A DNA stretch of 64,000 nucleotides from Edaphochlamys debaryana (lineage: Eukaryota > Chlorophyta > Chlorophyceae > Chlamydomonadales), in contig JAEHOE010000204.1 of the NCBI GenBank assembly GCA_016858145.1, positions 1 to 64,000 of the forward strand, in the 5' to 3' direction. A model generated the notes under the pieces. That model saw nothing but the letters and a program-made list of their open reading frames with translations. It did not search any database and was not told where the DNA came from. Shown here one piece after another: positions 17,923-54,129 of this stretch (position 1 is the stretch's first letter; each line of letters begins with the position of its first letter). A program made the position numbers and the translations under genes.

Positions 17923-17999
17923 AATCTCTCCCCCTTATGCGGGGCCGGCAGCTCGTCTGCCCGCTGGCCGCAACCCTGTAACGCGTCATTCCTAATAGC
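17923..17999 (+). mobile_element. Family A LINE, 3'-tail fragment (~75 bp)
   Basis: CTCTCCCCCTTATGCGGGGC through GCGTCATTCCTAA matches the last ~70 bases of the family A 3' UTR with a few substitutions. This is an extreme 5' truncation, and it is followed directly by another A copy. Confidence 0.85.
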
Positions 18000-18000
18000 C

Positions 18001-20489
18001 CATGTGCCCATGTGGTGTGTGGATGGATGCCCATGTGGTGTGTGGATGGATGAAGGGGATCGGACGCACCACTTCTGGTCTTGCTGTGTCGCTGGTGCTC
18101 TTCGTGAGGCCCTTGAAGAAGAACTGTACAGATGGACTCCTAGCTATGCCCTCGGCAAGCAGCATTTGTGGCTCGTGACTCCGCCTGTGGGCGTGTCTGG
18201 TGTGACTTGGGATGTGGTCTGCCTAGCTGCGGTGGCTGCTCTGGAGCGGGGACGTCAGTGGCTCTATGCCGCCCGCCCGGAGACAGGTGCCCCGCTTGGG
18301 CGCGCCACCCTTTCTCGACTTGGTTTGCAAGTGGTTGCGGAATTTTGGGCTCGTGTTCGCTCCTTTGCGGAAGACTGTGGTCAAGGTTTCAGTCAGAAGT
18401 GGAGAGACGTTCCGCCCGAGCACCCTTTCCTGGGCGGCGTCGCCGGGAAGCCGCGGTTCAACCCCCCTGCGGATGTCGAGCCGCCTTCCCCCTGACTCGG
18501 CGTGGTTGTGGTGCTTATGATGATCTCATGTGGCTAGCCTTCTCGGGCTGAGACTGTCGCTGTATGGGTTGGAGTAGGTGGCTGCCTCGGTGTTAGACAT
18601 TCCCTTAGGGTACGCCTGGGGTCGGGGGACGTTGACTCTCTCCCCCTTGTGCGGGGCCGGCAGCTTGCTGCCCGCTGGCCGCCACCCTGTAATGCGTCAT
18701 TCCTAATAGCACTGAACTGTACAGATGGACTCCTAGCTATGCCCTCGGCAAGCAGCATTTGTGGCTCGTGACTCCGCCTGTGGGCGTGTCTGGTGTGACT
18801 TGGGATGTGGTCTGCCTAGCTGCGGTGGCTGCTCTGGAGCGGGGACGTCAGTGGCTCTATGCCGCCCGCCCGGAGACAGGTGCCCCGCTTGGGCGCGCCA
18901 CCCTTTCTCGACTTGGTTTGCAAGTGGTTGCGGAATTTTGGGCTCGTGTTCGCTCCTTTGCGGAAGACTGTGGTCAAGGTTTCAGTCAGAAGTGGAGAGA
19001 CGTTCCGCCCGAGCACCCTTTCCTGGGCGGCGTCGCCGGGAAGCCGCGGTTCAACCCCCCTGCGGATGTCGAGCCGCCTTCCCCCTGACTCGGCGTGGTT
19101 GTGGTGCTTATGATGATCTCATGTGGCTAGCCTTCTCGGGCTGAGACTGTCGCTGTATGGGTTGGAGTAGGTGGCTGCCTCGGTGTTAGACATTCCCTTA
19201 GGGTACGCCTGGGGTCGGGGGACGTTGACTCTCTCCCCCTTGTGCGGGGCCGGCAGCTTGCTGCCCGCTGGCCGCCACCCTGTAATGCGTCATTCCTAAT
19301 AGCACTGAACTGTACAGATGGACTCCTAGCTATGCCCTCGGCAAGCAGCATTTGTGGCTCGTGACTCCGCCTGTGGGCGTGTCTGGTGTGACTTGGGATG
19401 TGGTCTGCCTAGCTGCGGTGGCTGCTCTGGAGCGGGGACGTCAGTGGCTCTATGCCGCCCGCCCGGAGACAGGTGCCCCGCTTGGGCGCGCCACCCTTTC
19501 TCGACTTGGTTTGCAAGTGGTTGCGGAATTTTGGGCTCGTGTTCGCTCCTTTGCGGAAGACTGTGGTCAAGGTTTCAGTCAGAAGTGGAGAGACGTTCCG
19601 CCCGAGCACCCTTTCCTGGGCGGCGTCGCCGGGAAGCCGCGGTTCAACCCCCCTGCGGATGTCGAGCCGCCTTCCCCCTGACTCGGCGTGGTTGTGGTGC
19701 TTATGATGATCTCATGTGGCTAGCCTTCTCGGGCTGAGACTGTCGCTGTATGGGTTGGAGTAGGTGGCTGCCTCGGTGTTAGACATTCCCTTAGGGTACG
19801 CCTGGGGTCGGGGGACGTTGACTCTCTCCCCCTTGTGCGGGGCCGGCAGCTTGCTGCCCGCTGGCCGCCACCCTGTAATGCGTCATTCCTAATAGCACTG
19901 AACTGTACAGATGGACTCCTAGCTATGCCCTCGGCAAGCAGCATTTGTGGCTCGTGACTCCGCCTGTGGGCGTGTCTGGTGTGACTTGGGATGTGGTCTG
20001 CCTAGCTGCGGTGGCTGCTCTGGAGCGGGGACGTCAGTGGCTCTATGCCGCCCGCCCGGAGACAGGTGCCCCGCTTGGGCGCGCCACCCTTTCTCGACTT
20101 GGTTTGCAAGTGGTTGCGGAATTTTGGGCTCGTGTTCGCTCCTTTGCGGAAGACTGTGGTCAAGGTTTCAGTCAGAAGTGGAGAGACGTTCCGCCCGAGC
20201 ACCCTTTCCTGGGCGGCGTCGCCGGGAAGCCGCGGTTCAACCCCCCTGCGGATGTCAAGCCGCCTTCCCCCTGACTCGGCGTGGTTGTGGTGCTTATGAT
20301 GATCTCATGTGGCTAGCCTTCTCGGGCTGAGACTGTCGCTGTATGGGTTGGAGTAGGTGGCTGCCTCGGTGTTAGACATTCCCTTAGGGTACGCCTGGGG
20401 TCGGGGGACGTTGACTCTCTCCCCCTTGTGCGGGGCCGGCAGCTTGCTGCCCGCTGGCCGCAACCCTGTAATGCGTCATTCCTAATAGC
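18001..20489 (+). mobile_element. 5'-truncated family A copy tandemly repeated 4 times (593-bp unit)
   Basis: The first copy starts at ~18001 within the ORF2 zinc-finger region, with a small local duplication of GCCCATGTGGTGTGTGGATG. From 18121 a 593-bp unit (end of ORF2 plus 3' UTR) is repeated: 18121-18713, 18714-19306, 19307-19899 and 19900-20489. Each unit encodes the last ~120 codons of ORF2 (stops at 18495, 19088, 19681, 20274) and ends CCTAATAGCAC. The copies are almost identical; the last has GTCAAG for GTCGAG and CAACCC for CACCCC-type differences. One shared breakpoint for units 2-4 implies tandem duplication of one truncated insertion rather than independent insertions. Confidence 0.9.
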
Positions 20490-20520
20490 ACATTTTTTTC
20501 ACAGCATCCTTAGATATGGG
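20490..20520. repeat. 31-bp direct repeat, right copy
   Basis: Exact copy of 17820-17850, immediately followed by the next truncated A element at 20521. It marks the right side of the insertion that carried the array. Confidence 0.75.
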
Positions 20521-21785
20521 AGCGGCGGCCTGGCGGGCGCCCGTCGCCGCGCTGGGCTCGCCGTTGCCTGCCCCTGTACCGCTCTGACATCGTGCTTGGT
20601 GTGCTCGGCGTCTCGGAATGGTTCACGCTACCGTCCGAGCTCCACTGCGGAGTTCGGGCCGCTGGCCTCTTTGCAGCGCTGCTGCAGCGTATCCCCCCAG
20701 CTTGGGTGGAGGCTGCACGTGCTGCACGGCTGGCGCCTGGTGGGCCGGCCGCGGCCCCGCCGCTGCTGGCTGCCTGTCGCATCATCGCCCCTGCCGTGGG
20801 CTGGACGCTGCCGCCGGGTGCTCCCTGCCGCGTGATCCAGCTCACGGTTCGGGCCGCTACTCAGCTCCAACTCTCCGCGTCGGTGGACTCGCTGGCGCGG
20901 CGCCATCGGGCCTTCGTTGCGGAGGCCCTGTCCCTTCCCGCTGCGCCGCCTGAATCACTGTCTGCGTTCGCCGCAGCTCTGCGGCGGCTTTGGGCGGTGC
21001 GGTGGGAGCCGGAACACAAGAACCGCTCTGGCGTCTGGCTCTTAATGGGTTTGCGGGATTTGGGATGCATGCAGCTGATATTGCTCGGGGAGTAGGCCCT
21101 GCGATGTGCCCATGTGGTGTGTGGATGGCTGAAGGGGATCGGGCGCACCACTTCTGGTCTTGCTGTGTCGCTGGTGCTCTTCGTGAGGCCCTTGAAGAAG
21201 AACTGTACAGATGGACTCCTAGCTATGCCCTCGGCAAGCAGCATTTGTGGCTCGTGACTCCGCCTGCGGGCGTGTCTGGTGTGACTTGGGATGTGGTCTG
21301 CCTAGCTGCGGTGGCTGCTCTGGAGCGGGGACGTCAGTGGCTCTATGCCGCCCGCCCGGAGACAGGTGCCCCGCTTGGGCGCGCCACCCTTTCTCGACTT
21401 GGTTTGCAAGTGGTTGCGGAATTTTGGGCTCGTGTTCGCTCCTTTGCGGAAGACTGTGGTCAAGGTTTCAGTAAGAAGTGGAGAGACGTTCCGCCCGAGC
21501 ACCCTTTCCTGGGCGGCGTCGCCGGGAAGCCGCGGTTCAACCCCCCTGCGGATGTCGAGCCGCCTTCCCCCTGACTCGGCATGGTTGTGGTGCTTGTGAT
21601 GATCTCATGTAGCTAGCCCTCTCGGGCTGGGACTGTCACTGTATGGGTTGGAGTAGGTGGCTGCCTCGGTGTTGGACATTCCCTTAGGGTACGCCTGGGG
21701 TCGGGGGAAGTTGACTCTCTCCCCCTTGTGCGGGGCCGGCAGCTTGCTGCCCGCTGGCCGCCACCCTGTAATGCGTCATTCCTAA
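20521..21785 (+). mobile_element. 5'-truncated family A LINE copy, ORF2 C-terminus frameshifted
   Basis: Homology to A2 starts at the codons for ERRPGGRPSPRW (A2 position ~52684) and runs to the 3' end CCTAA at 21785. The coding part is broken near 21020, where GAACACAAGAACC lacks one A relative to GAACACAAAGAACC in the other copies. The zinc-finger segment CPCGVWMAEGDRAHHFWSC is intact downstream. ORF2 would end at 21574. This is a dead copy, useful as the insertion site of A1. Confidence 0.9.
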
Positions 21786-21840
21786 TAGCACCATAGCACC
21801 ATAGCACCATAGCTATGCGCTGCCGACTGATGCTCTAGGC

Positions 21841-23187
21841 ATGGCGTATTACGCGACCGCTGCGCGCGCCGCTCCGGCGCGCTCAGGGCTTACGGTTGAT
21901 ATGCCAGCATCAGTTAAGTCGTTCCTGGATGGCCAGCGCGTGCGGACGGCGACGTTCACAGCGCATTTCCCTCGCCGATCGCCGGCCACGCTCTCGCGCT
22001 CTCGCCGCGCGATTCAGGAGTCTTTTTTCCAGCAGCTGAAGTCCGCGCTGCCCGCGGCGGGCGGCGCGGACTCGGCGAACCCCTCGCTTCGCATCGGCTT
22101 CGCGAAGGGATGCCTCCTGCGCTCTGTGCCAGGGGGCGCCACTGCTCAGGTGGACATTACGGTCCCCAGTAACTTGTTTGGCTGGTTGGCTGACCAGCTG
22201 GACGACCGGAGCGGCCTGGAGTCCGCGGCCCTGCCCGGTGGAGTCGCGAAGCTTCGCTGGGTCGGCCGCTGGGACTCCAACGAGGGGTCCTACGTCCGGG
22301 CTCGCCCGCGCCACTTCCTGGCTACCAGCCTCCCGCCGGGCCTGGGCCTCGAGCTGGACGTGGCCCGGGACCTCCTGGGGGCCTGCCTGGGGGGGGTGGA
22401 GCTGGGCGCGCTCGAGGTGTGGTGCCTGCACGGCGGCAGTGCACCCATGCCGTTTACCGACCGGCTGATCGTGCCGGTGCCAGAGGGGGCTCAGCTACCG
22501 TCCGAGGAGCCCTCGTTCACGGTGGTCATGAAGGGCCACGGCGACGTCGTCTTCGAACTCTTCGACATCGACCGGTACCGCGCGCAGGCCGCTGCCGGCC
22601 CCTCCGGGGGAGGCAGCAGCGGCGGCCGTGGCAGCGGGGGCGGGGGCGGCGGAGGCGGCGGCGGCAGCGGGGGGAACGGCGGCGGCAGCACGGGCGGGGG
22701 CGGCGGCGGCAGCCAGGGTGGGGGCGGCGGCGGCAGCAAGGGCGGGGGCGGCGGCGGCGGCAAGGGCGGCGGCGGCGGCGGTGGCAACAGCGGCGGCGGT
22801 GGCAACGGCGGCGGCGGCAGCGGCGGCGGCAACGGAGCGGCACAGCAGCGGCGTGGCGGCGATGATGCGGCCGGGGGCGGCGGGGGTGTTCGCACCCGCA
22901 GCATGTCCCGGGGCAGGAGCAGCACGGCGCTTCCGCCCCGGGTGCAGGCCACCATGGACAAGGTGGCGGCTCGCCAGGCGGCGGGCCAGCCTCTGGCGCC
23001 GGGCCTCGACCGGCCCTCGGCGGCGCGCAGCAAATCCCCTCCTGCCGGGCGCGACCCCAAGCGCCAGTGCGCTCCCCCGGCGGGGCGCGAGACGCTGCAG
23101 CTCCCGCAGACGCTTGACGTGGACATGGCCGGCGGTGAGGGCGGCTCCACGATGGCGCCCGACGGCGCCGCTATGGTCACCTCATAG
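21841..23187 (+). CDS. Family A ORF1 protein (copy A1), 448 aa
   Basis: ORF1 of a LINE, the presumed RNA-binding partner that packages the element RNA. It begins at a true ATG (MAYYATAARAAPARSG) 19 bases after the 5' oligomer repeat. Residues ~1-240 look globular, with a basic stretch (HFPRRSPATLSRSRRAI). Residues ~250-335 are a glycine tract with serine and asparagine. The C-terminal third has basic clusters (TRSMSRGRSS, PAGRDPKRQ). No CCHC knuckle or RRM is recognisable. It is almost identical to copy A2 at 47927-49273. It ends in TAG at 23185, while the ORF2 frame is already open from 22866 in the -1 register. Confidence 0.8.
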   Translation: MAYYATAARAAPARSGLTVDMPASVKSFLDGQRVRTATFTAHFPRRSPATLSRSRRAIQESFFQQLKSALPAAGGADSANPSLRIGFAKGCLLRSVPGGATAQVDITVPSNLFGWLADQLDDRSGLESAALPGGVAKLRWVGRWDSNEGSYVRARPRHFLATSLPPGLGLELDVARDLLGACLGGVELGALEVWCLHGGSAPMPFTDRLIVPVPEGAQLPSEEPSFTVVMKGHGDVVFELFDIDRYRAQAAAGPSGGGSSGGRGSGGGGGGGGGGSGGNGGGSTGGGGGGSQGGGGGGSKGGGGGGGKGGGGGGGNSGGGGNGGGGSGGGNGAAQQRRGGDDAAGGGGGVRTRSMSRGRSSTALPPRVQATMDKVAARQAAGQPLAPGLDRPSAARSKSPPAGRDPKRQCAPPAGRETLQLPQTLDVDMAGGEGGSTMAPDGAAMVTS

Positions 23188-23189
23188 CC

Positions 23190-26100
23190 GGCCGTGGGGC
23201 ACGGCGCTCGGAGTCAGCTCTGCTGCGGGTTGGCTCCCACAACGTGCGCGGCCTTGTGACTCGCTCGGGTCATGGGGCTGATGCACGTGTGCCAGCGCTG
23301 CTCAAGTGCTGGGAGCGCAACCGCTTGGACGTGGTCTGCCTGCAGGAGACCCATGTCCTGGCGGGGGAGGAGAACGCAGCTGCCCTGAAGCTGCGTACAG
23401 CCTCGGCGGCTCTGCGCCTCCGAGGTTGGACGCCGTTCTGGAGCGCCGCGGTCACCCTTGATAGCGGCCGGCCGTCAGGGGGGGTGGCTATCCTCGTGCG
23501 TACGGCGCTTCTAGAGCGGCAGCTCGTCACCTATCCGTCGGGACAGGCAGCCCCGGCCGCCTCGCCTGACGGACGCCTCCTTACACTGCCCCTCTGCTGG
23601 GGTGGCCACTCCTTTGTGGTGGCGTCTGCATACCTTCCGGCCTGCGACCCTGCGGGCCAGCGGGAGTTTGCGGCGTCACGCCTGGCCCCTCTTTGCGCCG
23701 CCGGCCGCCCGCCGCTGGTGCTCGCCGCCGACTTCAACTGGGTTCCGGACGTGCAGCTCGACTCCGTCGCTGGGGCAGGTCGCTCTAGCGACCCCCCAAC
23801 TGCCCGGCAGTTCGCAGCTGCGTGCCCGGGCCTGGTTGACTCCTTCCGTCACCTTCATCCGCAGCTACGCAGCTTCAGCTATGTGGCGCCCAATGGTGGG
23901 TCCCGTGTTGACCGGGTCCTCCTCTCGCCGGGCCTGGCACCGGCCCTGCGTGAGGCAGCCATTCGGGAGGCCGCAGTCTCCGATCATCGTCTTGTCCTAG
24001 CAGGCCTTGCCCCAGTTGCGGACTCGCGCCTGGGGCCGGGCCTCCGTCGTGTGCGTGTTTCGTTCTACGACTTTGCTGACTTGCGCGACTCCTGGTCTGC
24101 CTGGCTTGAGGCTGCTATCGCTGAGGCGCCCGCGGGTGACCGCGAGCTCCTTGAGTGGTGGCCGGGCTTCAAGCGCAGGCTAGCCGCCCATGCGGGGCGG
24201 CTGAATCGTGAGGCCTATGTCCGCCGCGTCGCAGCCGGCGCCGACGAGGAGGCGGCGCAAGCCGCCTTTGACTCGGCGCTGGCAGCGGCAGCGGCGGGCG
24301 ACCAAACCGCCGCCCGAGATGCCGTGGTTGCCCGCTCTGCGAGCGCTGCGGCAGCGCTCCGGGCGGCGGCGCGCCCTGCTGGCGCTGCGCGGCGGGCATG
24401 GCTACGCTCAGGCGAACGGCCGTGCCCCGCTGTCACCTCCCTCGTTCGGCCTCCCACGCCGCGGTGCCCGATCCTGGCGCTGCGGCGACCTAACGGCACG
24501 TTGGTCACCTCGCCCACGGCGGTTCCGCAGGTGGCCGCCGACTTCTGGGCTAGCGTGTGCACGCCTGGCCCTGCAGCGCCGTCGGCCCGCCATGCGGTGC
24601 TGACGGCGCTACGGGAGCTGGGGTCGCGCTGCCCAGCGTCGGCGGTCGAGGCCTTGGGCCAGCCTACGGTTACCGCTGAGGAAGTTCGCAAGGCGCTGGC
24701 GGCCTCACCGCCTGGCAAGGCGGCGGGGGCCGACGGCATCCCAACCGAGCTCTACAAGGAATTCTCCACACAGTTTGCGCCCCTGTTAGCTCGAGTCTTC
24801 ACTGCGGTGGGGACTCAGCAGGCGGCGCCAGCTGGCTTTCTTGATGGCGTCATCTCCTCGTTCTACAAGGCGGGCGACCGCACGCTTCCCTCCAACTACC
24901 GCCCAATCACCCTCCTCGACACCGACTACCGCACCCTCGCCCGTGTCCTCATGCTTCGTCTTCGACCCGTCTTCGCCCTCGTCATTGGCCCTGAGCAAAC
25001 TGCCTTCCTTGCTGGCCGCCGCATCGCCGACAACGTGCTGCTCTTGCAGCTGTTGCCGGAGTTGCTGCGGTCGGCAGGGCAGGCGGGGGCCGCCGTCTTC
25101 CTCGATTTCTACAAGGCCTATGACACTGTTGATCGCTCTTTCCTCTTTGACTGCCTGGAGGCGCTGGGCGTCGGATCGGGCTTCCTAGCCTGGGTCCGCT
25201 GCCTGCACACGGGCACCCGCGCCTCAGCCCTTGTCAACGGCCACCTGTCCAACCCGGTCTCCATCTCGGCTGGCGTTCGGCAGGGGTGCCCCCTCGCCCC
25301 TCTCCTCTACCTCGCCGTGGCTCAGGCTCTGTCCTGCTGGCTGCGGCGGTGTCGGGTTGGGTTGGTGGCGGCTGGGGTGCCGGTGCTGGCCTCCCAGTAC
25401 GCTGACGACTGCACCCCCCTGCTGGACGGCCCCCACTGCGCTCCTGCATTCCTGCAAGCCATGGAGGTCTTCCGGCAGGCCTCGGGTCAGCGCCTAAACG
25501 TTGACAAAACAGAGCTTATGCCGCTCGGCCCTGCTGCTGCTGCCCCTGTCCTGGAGCGTGTTGCCAGCTCCGAGGCCGGGACCGCGGCCAGCGGGGCTCC
25601 TGCCCCGGCGCCGCCGGTCTCGGCGGCGCCCACCACCTCTCCGCCGCCCCTCGGGGCGGCGGCCTCCTCTGTGGCCCTGGCGGGTGCGTCCCGCTCCCGC
25701 CACGGCCGCAGATACCCCGCACGCTGGCGCTGCTGCCGCGGTGACCCTTGTGGTCGCAGCGGCGGCGGCGCCGGCTCCTGCCCTCCGCACCGTGTCCTCA
25801 GCCCGCACGCTGGGCGTCCTGTTTTGGGGCGCCCCGCCCTCAACGTTACCTGTCGTCGACTTCGCTCCTGTCTACGCCGTCCTGCAGCGAGTGGCGCACC
25901 TGCCGCTTTCTGCCTTCGGCCGCGCTTTTGCGGCCTCGTCGTATGCGCTAAGTAAAGTTCTGTACCATCTTGAGTTTTCCCGCCTGCCGTCAGCCTCAGC
26001 GCTGTCGACCCTCGGCAGTCGTGTGGCGGCGCTGGTTGATCGGGGCCTGGCTCCGGACGCTGACGCCGACACGCGACGCACGCGCCTGCCTGGCTTGCCG

Positions 26101-27654
26101 TCGGACTGCCTCGTGCTCCCGCCTGTGGTTGGCGGCTTCGGCCTCCTACCGCTGCGTGAGCACGTTCAGGCCCGGCATGCTTGCCTGGCCTCACGCTTTA
26201 TCCACGGCGCGCTGGGCTTCTTGCCTAGTGTGCCCACCTGGGTGGCGGTGGCGATGGCGCAACTTCGTCGTCTCCATCCGGCCGCCCACCCCCTCGCCCT
26301 CCTCACTGCAGCCGCTGGCGGGCGCCTCTTCGGATGCCCCATCCCCAGCGACTGCCCCGCCCTCAAACGTCTTGTCTCTGCCTTCACTACTCTTCCGCCG
26401 CCGGCTGTGCTTGCGTGGGACTTGCTAGCAGCGGGGCCATGGTGCTACCACGCTCCGCTGTGGGGCAATCCCGCGCTTGATGCTGGCGGCGAGCCTCTAC
26501 ATGTGGCTTTCCCCGACCTCTTCGACGTGCCTTCGCTTCGTTGCGTGGGCATGGCGGTTGCGGTGGTGGATGCCTTCCGTCGCTTCAACCGTCAATGGGA
26601 GCGGCGGCCTGGCGGGCGCCCGTCGCCGCGCTGGGCTCGCCGTTGCCTGCCCCTGTACCGCTCTGACGTCGTTCTTGGTGTGCTCGGCGTCTCGGAATGG
26701 TTCACACTACCGTCCGAGCTCCACTGCGGAGTTCGGGCCGCTGGCCTCTTTGCAGCACTGCTGCAGCGTATCCCCCCAGCTTGGGTGGAGGCTGCACGTG
26801 CTGCACGGCTGGCGCCTGGTGGGCCGGCCGCGGCCCCGCCGCTGCTGGCTGCCTGTCGCATCATCGCCCCTGCCGTGGGCTGGACGCTGCCGCCGGGTGC
26901 TCCCTGCCGCGTGATCCAGCTCACGGTTCGGGCCGCTACTCAGCTCCAACTCTCCGCGTCGGTGGAATCGCTGGCGCGGCGCCATCGGGCCTTCGTTGCG
27001 GAGGCCCTGTCCCTTCCCGCTGCGCCGCCTGAATCACTGTCTGCGTTCGCCGCAGCTCTGCGGCGGCTTTGGGCGGTGCGGTGGGAGCCGGAACACAAAG
27101 AACCGCTCTGGCGTCTGGCTCTTAATGGGTTTGCGGGATTTGGGATGCATGCAGCTGATATTGCTCGGGGAGTAGGCCCTGCGATGTGCCCATGTGGTGT
27201 GTGGATGGATGAAGGGGATCGGACGCACCACTTCTGGTCTTGCTGTGTCGCTGGTGCTCTTCGTGAGGCCCTTGAAGAAGAACTGTACAGATGGACTCCT
27301 AGCTATGCCCTCGGCAAGCAGCATTTGTGGCTCGTGACTCCGCCTGTGGGCGTGTCTGGTGTGACTTGGGATGTGGTCTGCCTAGCTGCGGTGGCTGCTC
27401 TGGAGCGGGGACGTCAGTGGCTCTATGCCGCCCGCCCGGAGACAGGTGCCCCGCTTGGGCGCGCCACCCTTTCTCGACTTGGTTTGCAAGTGGTTGCGGA
27501 ATTTTGGGCTCGTGTTCGCTCCTTTGCGGAAGACTGTGGTCAAGGTTTCAGTCAGAAGTGGAGAGACGTTCCGCCCGAGCACCCTTTCCTGGGCGGCGTC
27601 GCCGGGAAGCCGCGGTTCAACCCCCCTGCGGATGTCGAGCCGCCTTCCCCCTGA
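23190..27654 (+). pseudogene. Family A ORF2 (endonuclease/reverse transcriptase), copy A1, one frameshift
   Basis: The frame encodes VGSHNVRG, VVCLQETHV and LAADFN (endonuclease), then YRPITLLDTDYRTLARV, DFYKAYDTVDR, GVRQGCPLAPLLY and QYADDCT (reverse transcriptase), and lastly CPCGVWMDEGDRTHHFWSC (zinc finger, zf-RVT-like). An extra C near 25690 (GTCCCGCTCCC, against GTCCGCTCCC in A2) shifts the frame in the A/P-rich linker after the RT core. The first part ends at 25955, and the remainder is open to 27654 in the other frame. Otherwise it matches the intact A2 protein very closely. No ATG lies near the start of the ORF2 frame. Confidence 0.9.
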
Positions 27655-27746
27655 CTCGGCGTGGTTGTGGTGCTTATGATGATCTCATGTGGCTAGCCTT
27701 CTCGGGCTGAGACTGTCGCTGTATGGGTTGGAGTAGGTGGCTGCCT

Positions 27747-45000: not shown

Positions 45001-46450
45001 CCTCACCCGCTCCGGCGCCGAGGCCTACAGCTTGGCTCTTCCCGCGGACTGCCCTGCGCTCTCCCGGCTCGTGCTGGCCTTCACCTGCCTGCCGCCCGTG
45101 GAGGTTGTGCGCCCTGAGGCTCTGGCCCCCGGCCCCTGGTGCGTGGCGGCGCCCCTGTGGTGGAACCCCGTTCTGCCGGCCCTAGCCGGCGGCGGCGCGG
45201 GCCTTGAGGCCGACTTCCCCGATCTCTCTGCCATCCCCGGCCTGGTGACTGTGGGGGTTGCCGTCAGATGCTGGGAGGCCCTTGGCGTCATCCACACCCA
45301 GCGGGCTGCGCTGCCACCGGGGCTAGAGCCCCCGCCCCGCCTCCGGCGGCGCTGGACGCTTCTGTACAAGCGGCGAGTCTTGCGGGGTGTGCTGCGCCTC
45401 GGCTCGGCCAATGATGGCGGCTTTGACCGCTCGACCCTGGCGGCGGCGTTGCAGGACGGCGTGACGGCCCTGGAGCGCTTTGCGGCGCTCCTGGCGCGCC
45501 TCCCTGCGGGCTGGGTCGAGGCGGCGCGCGCTGCGGCGGCTGGCGGACCTGCCGCAGCACCCTCCGCCGTGGCGGCCTGGCGGGAGGTGCTGGGCGCTGT
45601 GGGGTGGCGCTGTGGTGCTGCCGTCGTCCCCGCGGCCTCTCTGACCGTGCGGGCAGCCACGCAACTGCAACTCGGGCCCGCCCTTGACGTTCTGGCCGCC
45701 AAGCACGGCGCCTTTGTGGCTCAGGCGCTGGGCCTCGGCGGTGCCCCAGCCCCTGCTGCTGCCCTGGCCACGCTGCGGAGCACGTTCACCCGGCTCTGGC
45801 GGCTGCGGTGGGAGAACGAGAACAAAGAGCCGTTTTGGCGGCTGGCCCTCAACGGGTTCTCGTACTTTGCTATGCACGAGCGGCGGCGGCGGGCTGCGGC
45901 GGGCAGGGCGGGCTCGGGAGGGTCGGGGGCCTTGGGTTCTGTGCAAGAGGGCGGCGCTGCGCCTGCTGGGTCGGGTGGTGGTTGTGGAGGCATGCCGCGT
46001 TGCCCTTGTGGACATGCTATGGATCAGGGCCCCCGGATGCATCACTTTTGGTCTTGCCCGGTCGCCCAGACGCTTCGTGACTACATGACCGAAATGGGGG
46101 GTGTTGCGAATTTGTGGTTGGTTCAACCCCCTACGAATGAGATTCAACAGCCTGTGTGGGATGTTGTTTGTTTGGCCGCGGTTGCGGCTATGGAGAGAGG
46201 GCGCCAATGGTTGTATGGGGTGCGGTCTGGGCCTGGCAGGCGGATGCGGGCCCGAACTGTGCGGCGCATTGGTGCTCGGGTTGTAGCTGATTTTGTTTCG
46301 CGCCTCTGGTCCTTTGCCTTGCTGGGTGTTCGCCCGCGGGGCTGGGGCGCTGTGCCCGCAGATCATCCCTTTCTGGGCTCTGATGCCTTGGGGCGGGTGG
46401 TGTGCCGGGTGTCGCTCGAGGCTTCTGACTCTGACTCTGATTCCGTGTGA
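42062..46450 (+). CDS. Family B ORF2: endonuclease / reverse transcriptase / zinc finger, ~1460 aa
   Basis: It nicks target DNA and reverse-transcribes the element RNA (target-primed reverse transcription). The endonuclease spans about residues 5-280, with VVCVQETRV, AADFNFVMD, SRIDRVLV and ADHRMV. The RT spans about residues 480-760: NYRPITLLDTDYRTLARV, FYKAYDTVDR, GVRQGCPLAPLLY and SQYADDCT with the catalytic YADD near 44231. The C-terminal CPCGHAMDQGPRMHHFWSC near 46001 resembles the zf-RVT finger of plant L1 proteins. There is no ATG near the N-terminus: the frame follows the ORF1 TAA directly, and GTG at 42092 is not a credible nuclear start. A 12-bp deletion relative to B1 removes ELSV near 46105, with no frame change. 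Confidence 0.92.
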   Translation, partial: CRCRDIRGLGVGTDATKLPALLRLWAREGLGVVCVQETRVPASGVAAARLALHNLSCSARLSGWESYWAPAAVSPTSGRACGGVAILVRSDLISSGQLAFPGGKPALEAAADGRLLRLPVCWGGHSLTLMCAYLPSCNPPAQQRFVRDRLGPAASCSGSQVWAADFNFVMDPALDATSARVADRPVAAAFRASCPGLHDTFRRLHPGRRSYTYVSGSGSSRIDRVLVTEDLAPLVTSCSVQPGGPADHRMVVAALAPSPAASPLGPGLPRARLHFLDFPDLRTELHDWLALRTPTAPADPVQLLRWWPRFKADLSRLCSRLSAAARRRHVFSAAVEAAAADAAEAAFAAVEQAATPAAAAAAASQAVAARSQAAAAARHASQGLARRTRLAWLQSGERPSPALTRLVRPRGTCRRIAALRCPGGGITSDPRRMAQVVADYWSGVCSPRPAAAGPRAAVLAALRAAGRRCAPAGLAALGSSVVTVSEVAAALAASPAGRAPGPDGLPVELYQEFPAFFAPLLASVFSAILHSGSVPAGFLDGVISSFFKAGDPTEPSNYRPITLLDTDYRTLARVLVQRLLPVFGDVIAPEQTAFFRLRRIADNVLLLQLLPALLRAFGADGWALFLDFYKAYDTVDRDFLFACLEELGVGAGFLAWVRRLHTGTRAAAIVNGHLSSWVPLTAGVRQGCPLAPLLYLAVAQALLSWLRSQGFGLGPPALRQTASQYADDCTAFVATTSLTSFRSAMERFYEASGQRLNVQKCEMLAMGPQTPGTCVDWAETAWAAMAYVAALRAGPSASVQSQPGPVRILDVRVVRHPKTLGVRFSNTNDLPPASLAAALEVLPRIASLPLSAFGRAAAASGYAVSRVLYHLEFSGLPPADELEAFLKAVSAVVDRAVPPGAPAEAPRRGAGVSGTCLALHPSLGGFGLLPLVEHVRGRHAVLAARLLLGACGLLPFAPPWTTVALALLRRACPSAHPLGLLTRSGAEAYSLALPADCPALSRLVLAFTCLPPVEVVRPEALAPGPWCVAAPLWWNPVLPALAGGGAGLEADFPDLSAIPGLVTVGVAVRCWEALGVIHTQRAALPPGLEPPPRLRRRWTLLYKRRVLRGVLRLGSANDGGFDRSTLAAALQDGVTALERFAALLARLPAGWVEAARAAAAGGPAAAPSAVAAWREVLGAVGWRCGAAVVPAASLTVRAATQLQLGPALDVLAAKHGAFVAQALGLGGAPAPAAALATLRSTFTRLWRLRWENENKEPFWRLALNGFSYFAMHERRRRAAAGRAGSGGSGALGSVQEGGAAPAGSGGGCGGMPRCPCGHAMDQGPRMHHFWSCPVAQTLRDYMTEMGGVANLWLVQPPTNEIQQPVWDVVCLAAVAAMERGRQWLYGVRSGPGRRMRARTVRRIGARVVADFVSRLWSFALLGVRPRGWGAVPADHPFLGSDALGRVVCRVSLEASDSDSDSV

Positions 46451-46680
46451 TTTCGGTGTGATCCGCGCTGCTTGTCCCTTGGGCTAGGTGGTGCTGTTTG
46501 GTGTTTACTTGTTAGGTGCTTCGCGCACGTGACTGGCTGAGAGGGTGGGTGCGCTGACCAGAAGACTCTTTAGGACGGCTCCCGGCTTCGGTTGGGGGGC
46601 AAGGGGTTGAAGGGCTGCAGCCCATGCAAATCGGCCCTCGCAGGGGGGTCGGGCCTCTTGTAACGCACCGCGTCCTAACG

Positions 46681-47828
46681 AACGCAATAAGCATCCTAAC
46701 ATAGCACCATAGCACCATAGCGTGCTTGGGCCGGCGACACCTCACGCCGCGCCGATGTGCCAATATTTGTCGACCCGATAGGGGTCCCTTCCGGGGGCGG
46801 CCTAGGGCGCTCTGTCTGCTCAGCTGTGGGATGGTGGGTCCCTAGCGGTCTCTGCTGGGGGCCGCGCTGGCGGAGGACGCCGGTCGCGGTCTCAGAAGCT
46901 TCGCGAGGTCATCATCGTCGCCTTCTCGCTGGAGTGTTCCTCGTTCCTCCATCGCTGGAGCCTCAAGTTCCTCGTGGCGTCGTCTTGCTACGGCTACTGT
47001 GGAGCGCCAGGTCGCTGGGCCTGGGCCTGTCTTCCAGTCGGCATCCGCGGTGTGATGCGCTGTGAGTTGCGCGCTTGGCGTCGAGGTCCCAACCTCCCGG
47101 ACTTCTGGCTGGCTTGGAGCGGTCTAAGTGGCTATAGCCTAGAGAGGCTGTTACGGGAGGCGGCGCTAGGTCGGGCCGGGTGCGTGTGCGCTCCCGGTCC
47201 TGGGTACGAGGTTTGGGGCGTGGGGGCGAGGGTGGTGCGCTGTCGCCGGTGGGCTTGAGCCGGGGCGTCTCTGGGCGTCGTCGAGAGCGCCCTGGCTTCG
47301 TTGTGCTCGTGTGTGGCAGCCGGCTCGGGACTTGCTGGGGGGCGCCTGGCGGGTGTGGTCCCCGCGGTGTCGGCTGGGGTTTCTGCTGGCCTGCGGCTGT
47401 GTGGTCGGGTGCTTTAGGCGGCGGGGGTTTTGGGCGGGTTTGGGCAGGGCGGGCGGGGCGCGGGGGGTTGGGCGTTTGTGAGGTCGGGGCGGGTTGGGCG
47501 GGTTTGGGTGGGCGGGCGCTGGTGTAGCTAGGGAAGGGCCCTGCGTAGGGTCGTGGGCCAGTGCTGCGTGGGGGCGTTTGGGGTTTGTGCTGCGTGTTTG
47601 CCCGGCCACGCCACTGGCTGGGCGGGCTGCTGGGGCTTGCCCTGGCTGGCTCTTTGGACCCGCGCGTGTGCTTGGAGTTGGTGGCGGCGCAAGACCTTGG
47701 CGGTGTTTGACCGTGCAGACTCTTCTCCTGGCCTTCGGGCCGGGGGACAAGGGGTTCGAGGGCTGTAGCCCCACCCAAGTCGGCCCTCGCAGGGGGGTCG
47801 GGCCTCTTGTAATACCCGCATCCTAACG
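46681..47828 (+). mobile_element. Non-autonomous element F, copy F3 (with a 20-bp scar at its left end)
   Basis: 46681-46700 carries GCAATAAGCATCCTAAC, another very short LINE-end remnant. Then (ATAGCACC)2 and GTGCTTGGGCC start a full-length F copy ending TAATACCCGCATCCTAAC at 47827. It differs little from F1 and F2. After it come 34 bp of unassigned DNA (47829-47862) before A2. Confidence 0.86.
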
Positions 47829-47926
47829 AACGCCGCGTTGCGTGGGACTACACGCCCTGAAGATAGCACCATAGCACCATAGCACCATAGCACCATAGCT
47901 ATGCGCTGCCGACTGATGCTCTAGGC

Positions 47927-49273
47927 ATGGCGTATTACGCGACCGCTGCGCGCGCCGCTCCGGCGCGCTCAGGGCTTACGGTTGATATGCCAGCATCAGT
48001 TAAGTCGTTCCTGGATGGCCAACGCGTGCGGACGGCGACGTTCACAGCGCACTTCCCTCGCCGATCGCCGGCCACGCTCTCGCGCTCTCGCCGCGCGATT
48101 CAGGAGTCTTTTTTCCAGCAGCTGAAGTCTGCGCTGCCCGCGGCGGGCGGCGCGGACTCGGCGAACCCCTTGCGTCGCATCGGCTTCGCGAAGGGATGCC
48201 TCCTGCGCTCTGTGCCAGGGGGCGCCACTGCTCAGGTGGACATTACGGTCCCCAGTAACTTGTTTGGCTGGTTGGCTGACCAGCTGGACGACCGGAGCGG
48301 CCTGGAGTCCGCGGCCCTGCCCGGTGGAGTCGCGAAGCTTCGCTGGGTCGGCCGCTGGGACTCCAACGAGGGGTCCTACGTCCGGGCTCGCCCGCGCCAC
48401 TTCCTGGCTACCAGCCTCCCGCCGGGCCTGGGCCTCGAGCTGGACGTGGCCCGGGACCTCCTGGGGGCCTGCCTGGGGGGGGTGGAGCTGGGCGCGCTCG
48501 GGGTGTGGTGCCTGCACGGCGGCAGTGCACCCATGCCGTTTACCGACCGGCTGATCGTGCCGGTGCCAGAGGGGGCTCAGCTACCGTCCGAGGAGCCCTC
48601 GTTCACGGTGGTCATGAAGGGCCACGGCGACGTCGTCTTCGAACTCTTCGACATCGACCGGTACCGCGCGCAGGCCGCTGCCGGCCCCTCCGGGGGCGGC
48701 AGCAGCGGCGGCCGTGGCAGCGGGGGCGGGGGCGGCGGAGGCGGCGGCGGCAGCGGGGGGAACGGCGGCGGCAGCACGGGCGGGGGCGGCGGCGGCAGCC
48801 AGGGTGGGGGCGGCGGCGGCAGCAAGGGCGGGGGCGGCGGCGGTGGCAGCAGCACCGGCGGTGGCAACGGCGGCGGCGGCGGCGGTGGCAACGGCGGCGG
48901 CGGCAGCGGCGGCGGCAACGGAGCGGCACAGCAGCGGCGTGGCGGCGATGATGCGGCGGGGGGCGGCGGGGGTGTTCGCACCCGCAGCATGTCCCGGGGC
49001 AGGAGCAGCACGGCGCTTCCGCCCCGGGTGCAGGCCACCATGGACAAGGTGGCGGCTCGCCAGGCGGCGGGCCAGCCCCTGGCGCCGGGCCTCGACCGGC
49101 CCTCGGCGGCGCGCAGCAAGTCCCCTCCCGCCGGGCGCGACCCCAAGCGCCAGTGCGCTCCCCCGGCGGGGCGCGAGACGCTGCAGCTCCCGCAGACGCT
49201 TGACGTGGACATGGCCGGCGGTGAGGGCGGCTCCACGGTGGCGCCCGACGGCGCCGCTATGGTCACCTCATAG
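47927..49273 (+). CDS. Family A ORF1 protein (copy A2), 448 aa
   Basis: Same plan as the A1 protein: globular first half, glycine tract at ~250-335, basic C-terminus. The glycine tract is remodelled (a GGGSSTGGGNGG segment replaces GGGGKGG), as expected for a repetitive region that expands and contracts, while total length stays 448. It begins at ATG 47927 and ends in TAG at 49271. The -1 frame is open from 48952, giving a ~320-nt overlap with ORF2. Confidence 0.82.
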   Translation: MAYYATAARAAPARSGLTVDMPASVKSFLDGQRVRTATFTAHFPRRSPATLSRSRRAIQESFFQQLKSALPAAGGADSANPLRRIGFAKGCLLRSVPGGATAQVDITVPSNLFGWLADQLDDRSGLESAALPGGVAKLRWVGRWDSNEGSYVRARPRHFLATSLPPGLGLELDVARDLLGACLGGVELGALGVWCLHGGSAPMPFTDRLIVPVPEGAQLPSEEPSFTVVMKGHGDVVFELFDIDRYRAQAAAGPSGGGSSGGRGSGGGGGGGGGGSGGNGGGSTGGGGGGSQGGGGGGSKGGGGGGGSSTGGGNGGGGGGGNGGGGSGGGNGAAQQRRGGDDAAGGGGGVRTRSMSRGRSSTALPPRVQATMDKVAARQAAGQPLAPGLDRPSAARSKSPPAGRDPKRQCAPPAGRETLQLPQTLDVDMAGGEGGSTVAPDGAAMVTS

Positions 49274-49275
49274 CC

Positions 49276-52200
49276 GGCCGTGGGGCACGGCGCTCGGAGT
49301 CAGCTCTGCTGCGGGTTGGCTCCCACAACGTGCGCGGCCTTGTGACTCGCTCGGGTCATGGGGCTGATGCACGAGTGCCAGCGCTGCTCAAGTGCTGGGA
49401 GCGCAACCGCTTGGACGTGGTCTGCCTGCAGGAGACCCATGTCCTGGCGGGGGAGGAGAACGCAGCTGCCCTGAAGCTGCGTACAGCCTCAGCGGCTCTG
49501 CGCCTCCGAGGTTGGACGCCGTTCTGGAGCGCCGCGGTCACCCTTGATAGCGGCCGGCCGTCAGGGGGGGTGGCTATCCTCGTGCGTACGGCGCTTCTAG
49601 AGCGGCAGCTCGTCACCTATCCGTCGGGACAGGCAGCCCCGGCCGCCTCGCCTGACGGACGCCTCCTTACACTGCCCCTCTGCTGGGGTGGCCACTCCTT
49701 TGTGGTGGCGTCTGCATACCTTCCGGCCTGCGACCCTGCGGGCCAGCGGGAGTTTGCGGCGTCACGCCTGGCCCCTCTTTGCGCCGCCGGCCGCCCGCCG
49801 CTGGTGCTCGCCGCCGACTTCAACTGGGTTCCGGACGTGCAGCTCGACTCCGTCGCTGGGGCAGGTCGCTCTAGCGACCCCCCAACTGCCAGGCAGTTCG
49901 CAGCTGCGTGCCCGGGCCTGGTTGACTCCTTCCGTCACCTTCATCCGCAGCTACGCAGCTTCAGCTATGTGGCGCCCAATGGTGGGTCCCGTGTTGACCG
50001 GGTCCTCCTCTCGCCGGGCCTGGCACCGGCCCTGCGTGAGGCAGCCATTCGGGAGGCCGCAGTCTCCGATCATCGTCTTGTCCTAGCAGGCCTTGCCCCA
50101 GTTGCGGACTCGCGCCTGGGGCCGGGCCTCCGTCGTGTGCGTGTTTCGTTCTGCGACTTTGCTGACTTGCGCGACTCCTTGTCTGCCTGGCTTGAGGCTG
50201 CTATCGCTGAGGCGCCCGCGGGTGACCGCGAGCTCCTTGAGTGGTGGCCGGGCTTCAAGCGCAGGCTAGCCGCCCATGCGGGGCGGCTGAATCGTGAGGC
50301 CTATGTCCGCCGCGTCGCAGCCGGCGCCGACGAGGAGGCGGCGCAAGCCGCCTTTGACTCGGCGCTGGCAGCGGCAGCGGCGGGCGACCAAACCGCCGCC
50401 CGAGATGCCATGGTTGCCCGCTCTGCGAGCGCTGCGGCAGCGCTCCGGGCGGCGGCGCGCCCTGCTGGCGCTGCGCGGCGGGCATGGCTACGCTCAGGCG
50501 AACGGCCGTGCCCCGCTGTCACCTCCCTCGTTCGCCCTCCCACGTCGCGGTGCCCGATCCTGGCGCTGCGGCGACCTAACGGCACGTTGGTCACCTCGCC
50601 CACGGCGGTTCCGCAGGTGGCCGCCGACTTCTGGGCTAGCGTGTGCACGCCTGGCCCTGCAGCGCCGTCGGCCCGCCATGCGGTGCTGACGGCGCTACGG
50701 GAGATGGGGTCGCGCTGCCCAGCGTCGGCGGTCGAGGCCTTGGGCCAGCCTACGGTTACCGCTGAGGAAGTTTGCAAGGCGCTGGCGGCCTCGCCGCCTG
50801 GCAAGGCGGCGGGGGCCGACGGCATCCCAACCGAGCTCTACAAGGAATTCTCCACACAGTTTGCGCCCCTGTTGGCTCGAGTCTTCACTGCGGTGGGGAC
50901 TCAGCAGGCGGCGCCAGCTGGCTTTCTTGATGGCGTCATCTCCTCGTTCTACAAGGCGGGCGACCGCACGCTTCCCTCCAACTACCGCCCAATCACCCTC
51001 CTCGACACCGACTACCGCACCCTCGCCCGTGTCCTCATGCTTCGTCTTCGACCCGTCTTCGCCCTCGTCATTGGCCCTGAGCAAACTGCCTTCCTTGCTG
51101 GCCGCCGCATCGCCGAGAACGTGCTGCTCTTGCAGCTGTTGCCGGAGTTGCTGCGGTCGGCGGGGCAGGCGGGGGCCGCCGTCTTCCTCGATTTCTACAA
51201 GGCCTATGACACTGTTGATCGCTCTTTCCTCTTTGACTGCCTGGAGGCGCTGGGCGTCGGATCGGGCTTCCTAGCCTGGGTCCGCTGCCTGCACACGGGC
51301 ACCCGCGCCTCCGCCCTTGTCAACGGCCACCTGTCCAACCCGGTCTCCATCTCGGCTGGCGTTCGGCAGGGGTGCCCCCTCGCCCCTCTCCTCTACCTCG
51401 CCGTGGCTCAGGCTCTGTCCTGCTGGCTGCGGCGGTGTCGGGTGGGGTTGGTGGCGGCTGGGGTGCCGGTGCTGGCCTCCCAGTACGCTGACGACTGCAC
51501 CCCCCTGCTGGACGGCCCCCACTGCGCTCCTGCATTCCTGCAAGCCATGGAGGTCTTCCGGCAGGCCTCGGGTCAGCGCCTAAACGTTGACAAAACAGAG
51601 CTTATGCCGCTCGGCCCTGCTGCTGCTGCCCCTGTCCTGGAGCGTGTTGCCAGCTCCGAGGCCGGGACCGCGGCCAGCGGGGCTCCTGCCCCGGCGCCGC
51701 CGGTCTCGGCGGCGCCCACCACCTCTCCGCCGCCCCTCGGGGCGGCGGCCTCCTCTGTGGCCCTGGCGGGTGCGTCCGCTCCCGCCGCGGCCGCAGATAC
51801 CCCACACGCTGGCGCTGCTGCCGCGGTGACCCTTGTGGTCGCAGCGGCGGCGGCGCCGGCTCCTGCCCTCCGCACCGTGTCCTCAGCCCGCACGCTGGGC
51901 GTCCTGTTTTGGGGAGCCCCGCCCTCAACGTTACCTGTCGTCGACTTCGCTCCTGTCTACGCCGTCCTGCAGCGAGTGGCGCACCTGCCGCTTTCTGCCT
52001 TCGGCCGCGCTTTTGCGGCCTCGTCGTATGCGCTAAGTAATGTTCTGTACCATCTTGAGTTTTCCCGCCTGCCGTCAGCCTCAGCGCTGTCGACCCTCGG
52101 CAGTCGTGTGGCGGCGCTGGTTGATCGGGGCCTGGCTCCGGACGCTGACGCCGACACGCGACGCACGCGCCTGCCTGGCTTGCCGTCGGACTGCCTCGTG

Positions 52201-53739
52201 CTTCCGCCTGTGGTTGGCGGCTTCGGCCTCCTACCGCTGCGTGAGCACGTTCAGGCCCGGCATGCTTGCCTGGCCTCACGCTTTATCCAAGGCGCGCTGG
52301 GCTTCTTGCCTAGTGTGCCCACCTGGGTGGCGGTGGCGATGGCGCAACTTCGTCGTCTCCATCCGGCCGCCCACCCCCTCGCCCTCCTCACTGCAGCCGC
52401 TGGCGGGCGCCTCTTCGGATGCCCCATCCCCAGCGACTGCCCCGCCCTCAAACGTCTTGTCTCTGCCTTCACTCCTCTTCCGCCGCCGGCTGTGCTTGCG
52501 TGGGACTTGCTAGCAGCGGGGCCATGGTGCTACCACGCTCCGCTGTGGGGCAATCCCGCGCTTGATGCTGGCGGCGAGCCTCTACATGTGGCTTTCCCCG
52601 ACCTCTTCGACGTGCCTTCGCTTCGTTGCGTGGGCATGGCGGTTGCGGTGGTGGATGCCTTCCGTCGCTTCAACCGTCAATGGGAGCGGCGGCCTGGCGG
52701 GCGCCCGTCGCCGCGCTGGGCTCGCCGTTGCCTGCCCCTGTACCGCTCTGACGTCGTTCTTGGTGTGCTCGGCGTCTCGGAATGGTTCACACTACCGTCC
52801 GAGCTCCACTGCGGAGTTCGGGCCGCTGGCCTCTTTGCAGCACTGCTGCAGCGTATCCCCCCAGCTTGGGTGGAGGCTGCACGTGCTGCACGGCTGGCGC
52901 CTGGTGGGCCGGCCGCGGCCCCGCCGCTGCTGGCTGCCTGTCGCATCATCGCCCCTGCCGTGGGCTGGACGCTGCCGCCGGGTGCTCCCTGCCGCGTGAT
53001 CCAGCTCACGGTTCGGGTCGCTACTCAGCTCCAACTCTCCGCGTCGGTGGAATCGCTGGCGCGGCGCCATCGGGCCTTCGTTGCGGAGGCCCTGTCCCTT
53101 CCCGCTGCGCCGCCTGAATCACTGTCTGCGTTCGCCGCAGCTCTGCGGCGGCTTTGGGCGGTGCGGTGGGAGCCGGAACACAAAGAACCGCTCTGGCGTC
53201 TGGCTCTTAATGGGTTTGCGGGATTGGGGATGCATGCAGCTGATATTGCTCGGGGAGTAGGCCCTGCGATGTGCCCATGTGGTGTGTGGATGGATGAAGG
53301 GGATCGGGCGCACCACTTCTGGTCTTGCTGTGTCGCTGGTGCTCTTCGTGAGGCCCTTGAAGAAGAACTGTACAGATGGACTCCTAGCTATGCCCTCGGC
53401 AAGCAGCATTTGTGGCTCGTGACTCCGCCTGTGGGCGTGTCTGGTGTGACTTGGGATGTGGTCTGCCTAGCTGCGGTGGCTGCTCTGGAGCGGGGACGTC
53501 AGTGGCTCTATGCCGCCCGCCCGGAGACAGGTGCCCCGCTTGGGCGCGCCACCCTTTCTCGACTTGGTTTGCAAGTGGTTGCGGAATTTTGGGCTCGTGT
53601 TCGCTCCTTTGCGGAAGACTGTGGTCAAGGTTTCAGTAAGAAGTGGAGAGACGTTCCGCCCGAGCACCCTTTCCTGGGCGGCGTCGCCGGGAAGCCGCGG
53701 TTCAACCCCCCTGCGGATGTCGAGCCGCCTTCCCCCTGA
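49276..53739 (+). CDS. Family A ORF2: endonuclease / reverse transcriptase / zinc finger, ~1487 aa
   Basis: The endonuclease motifs are VGSHNVRG (49315), VVCLQETHV, LAADFNWVPD (near 49810), SRVDRVLLS and SDHRLV. The RT motifs are NYRPITLLDTDYRTLARV, FYKAYDTVDR, GVRQGCPLAPLLY and SQYADDCT (YADD near 51484), followed by GQRLNVDKTE. A long Ala/Pro linker (51650-51870) separates the RT from the C-terminal region, which carries CPCGVWMDEGDRAHHFWSC near 53270. A2 has RRIAENVLL where A1 and B copies have RRIADNVLL. No ATG occurs in the ORF2 frame between its opening at 48952 and the endonuclease, so ORF2 must be made by -1 frameshifting, reinitiation or non-AUG start. The coordinates given begin just after the ORF1 stop. 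Confidence 0.9.
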   Translation, partial: GRGARRSESALLRVGSHNVRGLVTRSGHGADARVPALLKCWERNRLDVVCLQETHVLAGEENAAALKLRTASAALRLRGWTPFWSAAVTLDSGRPSGGVAILVRTALLERQLVTYPSGQAAPAASPDGRLLTLPLCWGGHSFVVASAYLPACDPAGQREFAASRLAPLCAAGRPPLVLAADFNWVPDVQLDSVAGAGRSSDPPTARQFAAACPGLVDSFRHLHPQLRSFSYVAPNGGSRVDRVLLSPGLAPALREAAIREAAVSDHRLVLAGLAPVADSRLGPGLRRVRVSFCDFADLRDSLSAWLEAAIAEAPAGDRELLEWWPGFKRRLAAHAGRLNREAYVRRVAAGADEEAAQAAFDSALAAAAAGDQTAARDAMVARSASAAAALRAAARPAGAARRAWLRSGERPCPAVTSLVRPPTSRCPILALRRPNGTLVTSPTAVPQVAADFWASVCTPGPAAPSARHAVLTALREMGSRCPASAVEALGQPTVTAEEVCKALAASPPGKAAGADGIPTELYKEFSTQFAPLLARVFTAVGTQQAAPAGFLDGVISSFYKAGDRTLPSNYRPITLLDTDYRTLARVLMLRLRPVFALVIGPEQTAFLAGRRIAENVLLLQLLPELLRSAGQAGAAVFLDFYKAYDTVDRSFLFDCLEALGVGSGFLAWVRCLHTGTRASALVNGHLSNPVSISAGVRQGCPLAPLLYLAVAQALSCWLRRCRVGLVAAGVPVLASQYADDCTPLLDGPHCAPAFLQAMEVFRQASGQRLNVDKTELMPLGPAAAAPVLERVASSEAGTAASGAPAPAPPVSAAPTTSPPPLGAAASSVALAGASAPAAAADTPHAGAAAAVTLVVAAAAAPAPALRTVSSARTLGVLFWGAPPSTLPVVDFAPVYAVLQRVAHLPLSAFGRAFAASSYALSNVLYHLEFSRLPSASALSTLGSRVAALVDRGLAPDADADTRRTRLPGLPSDCLVLPPVVGGFGLLPLREHVQARHACLASRFIQGALGFLPSVPTWVAVAMAQLRRLHPAAHPLALLTAAAGGRLFGCPIPSDCPALKRLVSAFTPLPPPAVLAWDLLAAGPWCYHAPLWGNPALDAGGEPLHVAFPDLFDVPSLRCVGMAVAVVDAFRRFNRQWERRPGGRPSPRWARRCLPLYRSDVVLGVLGVSEWFTLPSELHCGVRAAGLFAALLQRIPPAWVEAARAARLAPGGPAAAPPLLAACRIIAPAVGWTLPPGAPCRVIQLTVRVATQLQLSASVESLARRHRAFVAEALSLPAAPPESLSAFAAALRRLWAVRWEPEHKEPLWRLALNGFAGLGMHAADIARGVGPAMCPCGVWMDEGDRAHHFWSCCVAGALREALEEELYRWTPSYALGKQHLWLVTPPVGVSGVTWDVVCLAAVAALERGRQWLYAARPETGAPLGRATLSRLGLQVVAEFWARVRSFAEDCGQGFSKKWRDVPPEHPFLGGVAGKPRFNPPADVEPPSP

Positions 53740-54129
53740 CTCGGCGTGGTTGTGGTGCTTGTGATGATCTCATGTAGCTAGCCCTCTCGGGCTGAGACTG
53801 TCGCTGTCTGGGTTGGAGTAGGTGACTGCCTCGGTGTTGGACATTCCCTTAGGGTACGCCTGGGGTCGGGGGACGTTGACTCTCTCCCCCTTGTGCGGGG
53901 CCGGCAGCTTGCTGCCCGCTGGCCGCAACCCTGTAATGCGTCATTCCTAACGAACGATATCGGTCGGTCTTTGCAGTCTTGATATTGACGTGCTCTGCAT
54001 TCATCAAGTGCCCAGATAATAGCGATGACCTCCTTACCGAGACACCTCAATCCCACTCACACACCGCAACCGTCAACCCGCTGACAAGTGCTTCCTCAAT
54101 CTGCAATGCCAAGGCACCCAGCTCTTCTT

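Follow-up and report, generated by a model that had tools for sequence, protein, structure and literature searches.

Background

Tandem copies of the LINE R1 in Drosophila are separated by a 14-bp target site duplication (TSD), and Stage and Eickbush infer that additional copies use the TSD on the 5' side of an existing copy as their site of insertion (PMC2718515). R1 uses one fixed site in the 28S rRNA genes.

In green algae, L1-type LINEs such as Zepp (Coccomyxa/Chlorella) and ZeppL-1_cRei (= L1-1_CR) form nested arrays of mostly 5'-truncated copies (PMC8226300, PMC3446292). Two ZeppL families are reported from Edaphochlamys debaryana, where they form localized clusters (PMC8226300). Zepp and L1-1_CR are listed with (A)n as their 3' end (PMC3747384, Table 3); among the other green-algal L1 families listed there, eight end in other repeats and five in none. 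The non-autonomous SINEX-3_CR shares its last ~80 nt with L1-1_CR, and both end in poly(A) (PMC3747384). SART1 of Bombyx is a LINE with a short repeat-unit target, TTAGG, the complement of which is CCTAA (PMC7265360).

The window analysed here is a stretch of 64,000 nucleotides of E. debaryana DNA, taken from contig C204, and it contains a long pile of elements. This array is probably made up of L1-type LINEs (families A and B) and non-autonomous partners (F, C and D), which insert by target-primed reverse transcription at 5'-GNCTAA-3' and extend the array mainly at its 5' edge. Insertion that is aimed at CTAA, and that also duplicates it, means that a landing site can be hit repeatedly and grow into a long array. 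A base-level rule of this kind, with GNCTAA as target and a TSD that contains CTAA and is used again, would make array growth directly testable, and the history of each array partly readable. It would also explain how unrelated 3' UTRs come to have one terminus without common descent. In the literature surveyed (titles and starts of abstracts, including few subscription journals), no CTAA target was found described for these elements.

Methods

Genome-wide searches were done on the 141.9-Mb assembly of 502 contigs. Family tails were searched with TCCTAA left out of the query, as a guard against bias, and this returned 232 places for A, 95 for B/F, 14 for C and 19 for D. The distinct tails read number 137, from loci L009-L108 and the window, and three of these are false D matches.

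TSDs were tested in 100 of the 137 tails, leaving out 32 whose 5' end lay beyond the stretch or at its border, and five with another terminus. The TSD caller looks for the bases after the terminus at the 5' side of the copy, and asks for at least 4 matching bases, which means that shorter TSDs are missed.

Layout of the array

The pile spans positions 17192-53950, repeat T included, and the nested LINE array itself 17925-53950. Its copies are mostly 5'-truncated and, like all features in this section, are on the plus strand. No minus-strand family tails were found inside the array; three minus-strand TCCTAA do occur there, but inside B tails, where they mark no terminus.

At the array's 5' edge stands T, a 660-bp repeat (17192-17851) with ends shared at five loci. 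Its end, ATATGGGG, abuts the array, and GGCTAATAG (17850-17858) holds the GNCTAA target of this edge plus the TSD bases TAG. Then come a 5'-truncated A tail with the terminus TCCTAA (17925-17995), a 5'-truncated A copy with TCCTAA and then TAGCAC (18028-18706), and three further A copies, also 5'-truncated, in tandem steps of 593 bp, each again with TCCTAA and then TAGCAC (18714-20485). Positions 20486-20515 hold TAGCAC and a filler copying T's last bases, the bases just left of the array's left edge. One more 5'-truncated A copy with TCCTAA follows (20516-21785), and after it a full-length A (21786-29998), which starts with (ATAGCACC)n and is split by a foldback element at ~27747-29871.

The middle of the array is more mixed. 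It has a family C copy ending in TGTAACAAACGGCTTCCTAA (30004-30452), a B copy with the terminus TCCTAA and, compared with the other B, an inverted internal stretch (30457-36818), an F of ~1.1 kb (36822-37951), a D copy ending in GTAAGTCTGCTTCCTAA (37958-38244) and a 5'-truncated B copy (38250-39200). An ultra-short F/B tail with a degenerate TSD (39206-39232) precedes the next F (39233-40362).

The right part starts with a full-length B (40367-46678), with (ATAGAGCCA)n at its 5' end and TCCTAA, then CGAAC, at its 3' end. The ultra-short tail GCATCCTAA (46684-46699) stands before another F (46701-47826), and a full-length A with the terminus TCCTAA (47863-53950) closes the array. The right flank reads CGAACGATATC (53951-53961), and its first bases match the three rightmost family junctions.

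Element families

By their predicted proteins A and B are L1-type LINEs, each with a single open frame in which an APE-type endonuclease precedes a LINE reverse transcriptase. The ORF2 of A (49330-53739) has 1469 aa, that of B (42092-46450) 1452 aa, and the Pfam families Exo_endo_phos and RVT_1 match both. Among proteins of solved structure, LINE-1 ORF2p comes closest to B ORF2 (E 5e-36), with R2 proteins behind it. Further open frames upstream of ORF2, at 40427-42061 in B and 47927-49273 in A, are without Pfam match. Going by published clustering, A and B may belong to Zepp/ZeppL. A is also dispersed, with single copies on many contigs. No relatives were found in viral contigs.

F is non-autonomous and has its last ~105 bp in common with B, at 81-85% identity, in the way that SINEX-3_CR shares its last ~80 nt with L1-1_CR. 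The C and D copies are short, with other 3' UTRs. F, C and D would be mobilised by the proteins of A and B.

Full-length A and F both start with (ATAGCACC)n (21785-21813, 36821-36849, 39230-39258 and 47863-47899), and B starts with (ATAGAGCCA)n (30455-30541 and 40369-40409); the number of repeats differs by copy. The two full-length B copies are partly inverted relative to each other (32170-33045 versus 42050-42911).

A further family, X, has only its last ~146 bp in common with A (~88-90% in the copies compared), and it also ends in TCCTAA. It is found singly and in arrays (L016, L027, L082, L089, L097, L101, L104, L108). An inverted-tail arrangement was considered for X and rejected, as the inner TTAGGAT is present in two of seven copies.

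A shared 3' terminus

All window families have the same layout at their 3' end: TGTAA (GGTAA in the D copy), 7-9 nt and TCCTAA. UGUAA is a poly(A) signal of green algae. On the plus strand of the window, 11 of the 12 TCCTAAC sites are element termini, and the remaining one (29863) lies beside the foldback insertion inside an A copy. Genome-wide, the pattern TGTAAN{7,9}TCCTAA is present at 388 places (181+207), versus 25 (14+11) for the reversed control.

TCCTAA directly follows the tail in 125 of the 134 distinct family tails from L009-L108 and the window. Among short C and D pieces this is so in 16 of 20, the exceptions being CCTTAA (L113), CCTACC (L117), CCTACA (L124) and CCTAGG (L126).

A preliminary description of this DNA had all families ending in TGTAA, some ten nucleotides and CCTAAC. 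The general shape of this holds, with 7-9 nt and TCCTAA, but its final C lies outside the element. Across 77 A tails, TCCTAA is followed by T 31 times, by C 20, by A 15 and by G 11, so the final C belongs to the locus, and CCTAAC was rejected as the element terminus. Six A ends at 17990-21785, for example, all read TCCTAATAGC. That description also raised the question of termini elsewhere: F, C and D at other loci have the same terminus, with other flanks.

It had further proposed that no poly(A) tail is kept, and indeed none was seen at element ends in the tails read. The case that it named as speaking against a shared terminus, poly(A) and unrelated ends in isolated copies, was not what was found. 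This sets A and B apart from Zepp and L1-1_CR, listed with (A)n ends (PMC3747384): here the end is TC-CTAA without poly(A), a TSD stands right after TCCTAA in 50 CTAA calls, and A is dispersed as well as arrayed. As far as the listed 3' ends of Zepp go, A and B thus differ from the reported Zepp/ZeppL by a poly(A)-free, target-matched end. F differs in the same way from SINEX-3_CR and its partner L1-1_CR, which both end in poly(A) (PMC3747384).

The 3' tails fold no better than shuffled sequence (five tails, z 0.79 to -1.26). A conserved 3' hairpin was rejected, since these five folded tails give it no support.

Target site and duplications

The bases that follow TCCTAA (C, GATA, GAAC, TAGCAC) are TSD and differ by locus. 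A TSD was called in 58 of the 100 testable copies, and 50 of the 58 begin with CTAA. When left and right ends from different copies are paired as a control, there are 5.6 calls per round, 0.9 of them with CTAA. Including CTAA, the TSDs are 8-15 bp long, where 8 is the minimum of the caller.

This means that the element proper ends in TC, and that CTAA with a few more bases is TSD. The preliminary description, which had offered a target-derived duplication as one explanation of the common end, was right in kind, also because copies at CTTA targets end in CTTA. There are two of these (L041 and L102) among the eight non-CTAA calls, both with the element terminus TCCTTA, which shows the final four bases to be derived from the target. 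Of the other non-CTAA calls, L050, a C tail with CTAACCATACAT on its left, would fit with a looser caller; L047, L091, L100 and two X-family rows (L017, L101) have no clean fit. The 42 copies without a TSD call include, among others, X-family and T-fused copies, of which the true 5' end is beyond the reference. The earlier statement that copies start exactly after the terminus needs some adjustment. Usually a few TSD bases come first, and sometimes filler, while the A at 21785 is joined directly at CTAA.

At three loci (L045, L121, L123) there are ultra-short insertions, in which repeated CTAA-TSD bases enclose nothing but the end of a D or F tail.

In 24 of the 50 CTAA calls there is TCCTAA on the left side, and all 24 of these are element tails, which makes the copies nested. 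The other 26 calls are outside element tails: 25 are A, and the single B is at the end of T. These 26 targets have G at position -2 of CTAA in 23 cases, versus 150 of 358 (42%) background CTAA sites in unmasked flanks (binomial p 1.1e-6). The base just before CTAA is G in 17, C in 5, A in 4 and T in none, and TC before CTAA does not occur in any of them. Only GNCTAA is common to these targets.

The genome has an estimated 414,000 CTAA and 174,000 GNCTAA sites. With a few hundred copies, a double landing by chance would hardly ever be expected, but nested copies make up 24 of the 50 calls, so the re-use of sites appears strongly non-random, although the loci are not a random sample of the copies.

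SART1 resembles the present elements in being a LINE with a short target, the complement of which reads CCTAA (PMC7265360). The 26 targets outside tails are not telomeric repeats, and so differ from the telomeric confinement of SART/TRAS and HeT-A. A pattern for candidate junctions with telomeres, TCCTAAA-CCCTAAA, matches at 11 places.

Direction of growth

Growth at the 5' edge is favoured, since the left TSD keeps its GN context after an insertion, whereas 3' ends offer TC-CTAA, a context found in 0 of the 26 targets outside tails.

In the window, the bases at the junctions change from right to left in blocks: CGAAC, CGATA and TAGCAC. The left edge of the array, GGGGCTAATAG, carries the last of these, and the filler at 20486-20515 repeats the bases next to this edge. 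A possible origin of CGATA is CTAACGA joined to the first bases of the B copy at 40367; for TAGCAC, in the left block, it is the start (ATAGCACC) of the A copy at 21785. Alternatively, this A copy came first and later copies went into TCCTAA junctions, which means that the direction is not forced by the blocks.

The C6 series has a similar pattern, with GGCTAATCGC as its left edge (L159). Nine A or X junctions were read there (two further X tails are outside this count), with TCGC in seven, TGGC in one (L017) and TCAT after the last listed A tail (L021). TCGC also belongs to the sequence of a 5'-truncated A copy near the right end of the series, which begins directly behind the L020 tail. This is presumably the copy with its tail in L021, at a distance ~0.6 kb longer than expected. 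A B-related element (78%) starts 19 bases beyond the L021 tail, and over 25 bp the left flank in L159 resembles T2, a relative of T, so neither side of the series is plain unique DNA. The pattern could also have arisen if the left edge was hit first and later copies kept entering TCCTAATCGC junctions.

On C51 there is a similar state change beside a B 5' end (L060), at a junction that also holds a short extra piece. A two-copy case (L084) has no readable left TSD.

The likeness to R1 is that LINE tandems are separated by TSDs, here in the 24 nested calls (PMC2718515); insertion into the 5' TSD would fit as well. The edges of the window array and of the C6 series favour such growth without proving it. 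R1, however, has a fixed 28S rRNA site and a 14-bp TSD (PMC2718515), whereas here the target is about six bases long, several loci are used, and several families occur together. The 26 targets outside tails share GNCTAA only, and not one fixed rRNA position.

Repeat T

T has 43 matches genome-wide, and several LINE arrays have it at their 5' edge. One set of its copies has the end ATATGGGG, fused to 5'-truncated A, B, C or D tails at different points (L011, L039, L067, L137, L141, L142, L143, L160, L161, L164). Another set ends in GGGGCGAA, as read in ten copies, of which two lie next to each other on C15.

In nine loci, allowing one mismatch, no left TSD with the state of the array was found upstream of T or T2. 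In two of the nine, L011 and the window, this state is found just after T instead. T may serve as a landing pad, with GGCTAA provided by its end, or it may be RNA gained by template switching. T as a known RNA was rejected: positions 16500-18100 have two sub-threshold Rfam matches only.

Proposed mechanism and alternatives

The proposed mechanism is target-primed reverse transcription at the short target 5'-GNCTAA-3'. The endonuclease would nick the opposite strand, at 5'-TTAG^NC, and the freed TTAG-3' would pair with CUAA at the end of the transcript, 13-15 nt after UGUAA. It is through this pairing that families with unrelated 3' UTRs would show one terminus. CUAA-TTAG pairing is perhaps involved; the endonuclease alone could set the site.

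Less surely, arrays would then grow mainly at the 5' edge, where the GNCTAA of the left TSD would keep its original context after each insertion and could be cut again. Where the TSD is short, the bases that come next at the new left junction would be those at the start of the inserted element, and copies added further left at a later time would inherit them, giving the blocks CGAAC, CGATA and TAGCAC from right to left.

Put more fully, but also more tentatively, this could be a LINE system that does without poly(A), where several families with unrelated 3' UTRs have one endonuclease/reverse transcriptase and 4-bp CUAA/TTAG priming in common. The founding GNCTAA would then be a persistent seed, with the 5' TSD hit repeatedly, and a multi-family array, possibly a centromere, would arise at the 5' edge from one nick site. 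This extended version is possible, if somewhat doubtful.

The main competing idea places growth at the other end. Every copy ends in a perfect CTAA target, so CTAA-directed insertion into the TCCTAA at an existing copy's 3' end, perhaps with longer UCCUAA-TTAGGA pairing, would regenerate the target each time. The 24 of 50 CTAA calls with a TCCTAA element tail on the left agree with this, and the blocks in the window and in C6 can arise in this way too. Priming by the previous copy's 3' end had been the second suggestion of the preliminary description, but it is disfavoured: the targets outside tails are GNCTAA, with G at -2 in 23 of 26 and TC before CTAA in 0 of 26, and every 3' end is TC-CTAA. 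In addition, two arrays have GGCTAA at their left edge, together with the TSD state that looks most recent, and none of the junctions examined requires insertion into TCCTAA. Growth from 3' ends is thus rather unlikely, and less probable than growth at the 5' edge.

Two other explanations are much weaker candidates. The three A units at 18714-20485, in exact 593-bp steps, look like a local tandem duplication, and amplification by the host or in the assembly could then have passed on the terminus without independent insertions. At most junctions, though, the families, the 5' truncation points and the fillers differ, and isolated copies on many contigs have their own TSDs. The isolated copies refute segmental duplication as a general explanation, and it is the least probable of those considered. 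The short F/B-like 3' ends directly before F 5' ends (39206-39232 and 46684-46699) might instead be tags like those of HeT-A, marking RNAs that started in, or jumped from, an upstream copy. Template jumping would not be expected to leave the target bases CGATA, CGAAC and GACTG that these junctions hold, and pieces of similar size lie between repeated CTAA-TSD bases at L045, L121 and L123, so that it too is very improbable.

Other features of the window

The foldback element at 27747-29871 has long inverted arms and sits near the 3' end of its A copy, with an apparent short duplication of A sequence at the insertion. In the right flank of the array there is a D-like tail with the terminus TCCTAA (54135-54158), on the minus strand and thus in the opposite direction. 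The start of the window (1-6446) is a satellite array with ~35 copies of a 184-bp unit.
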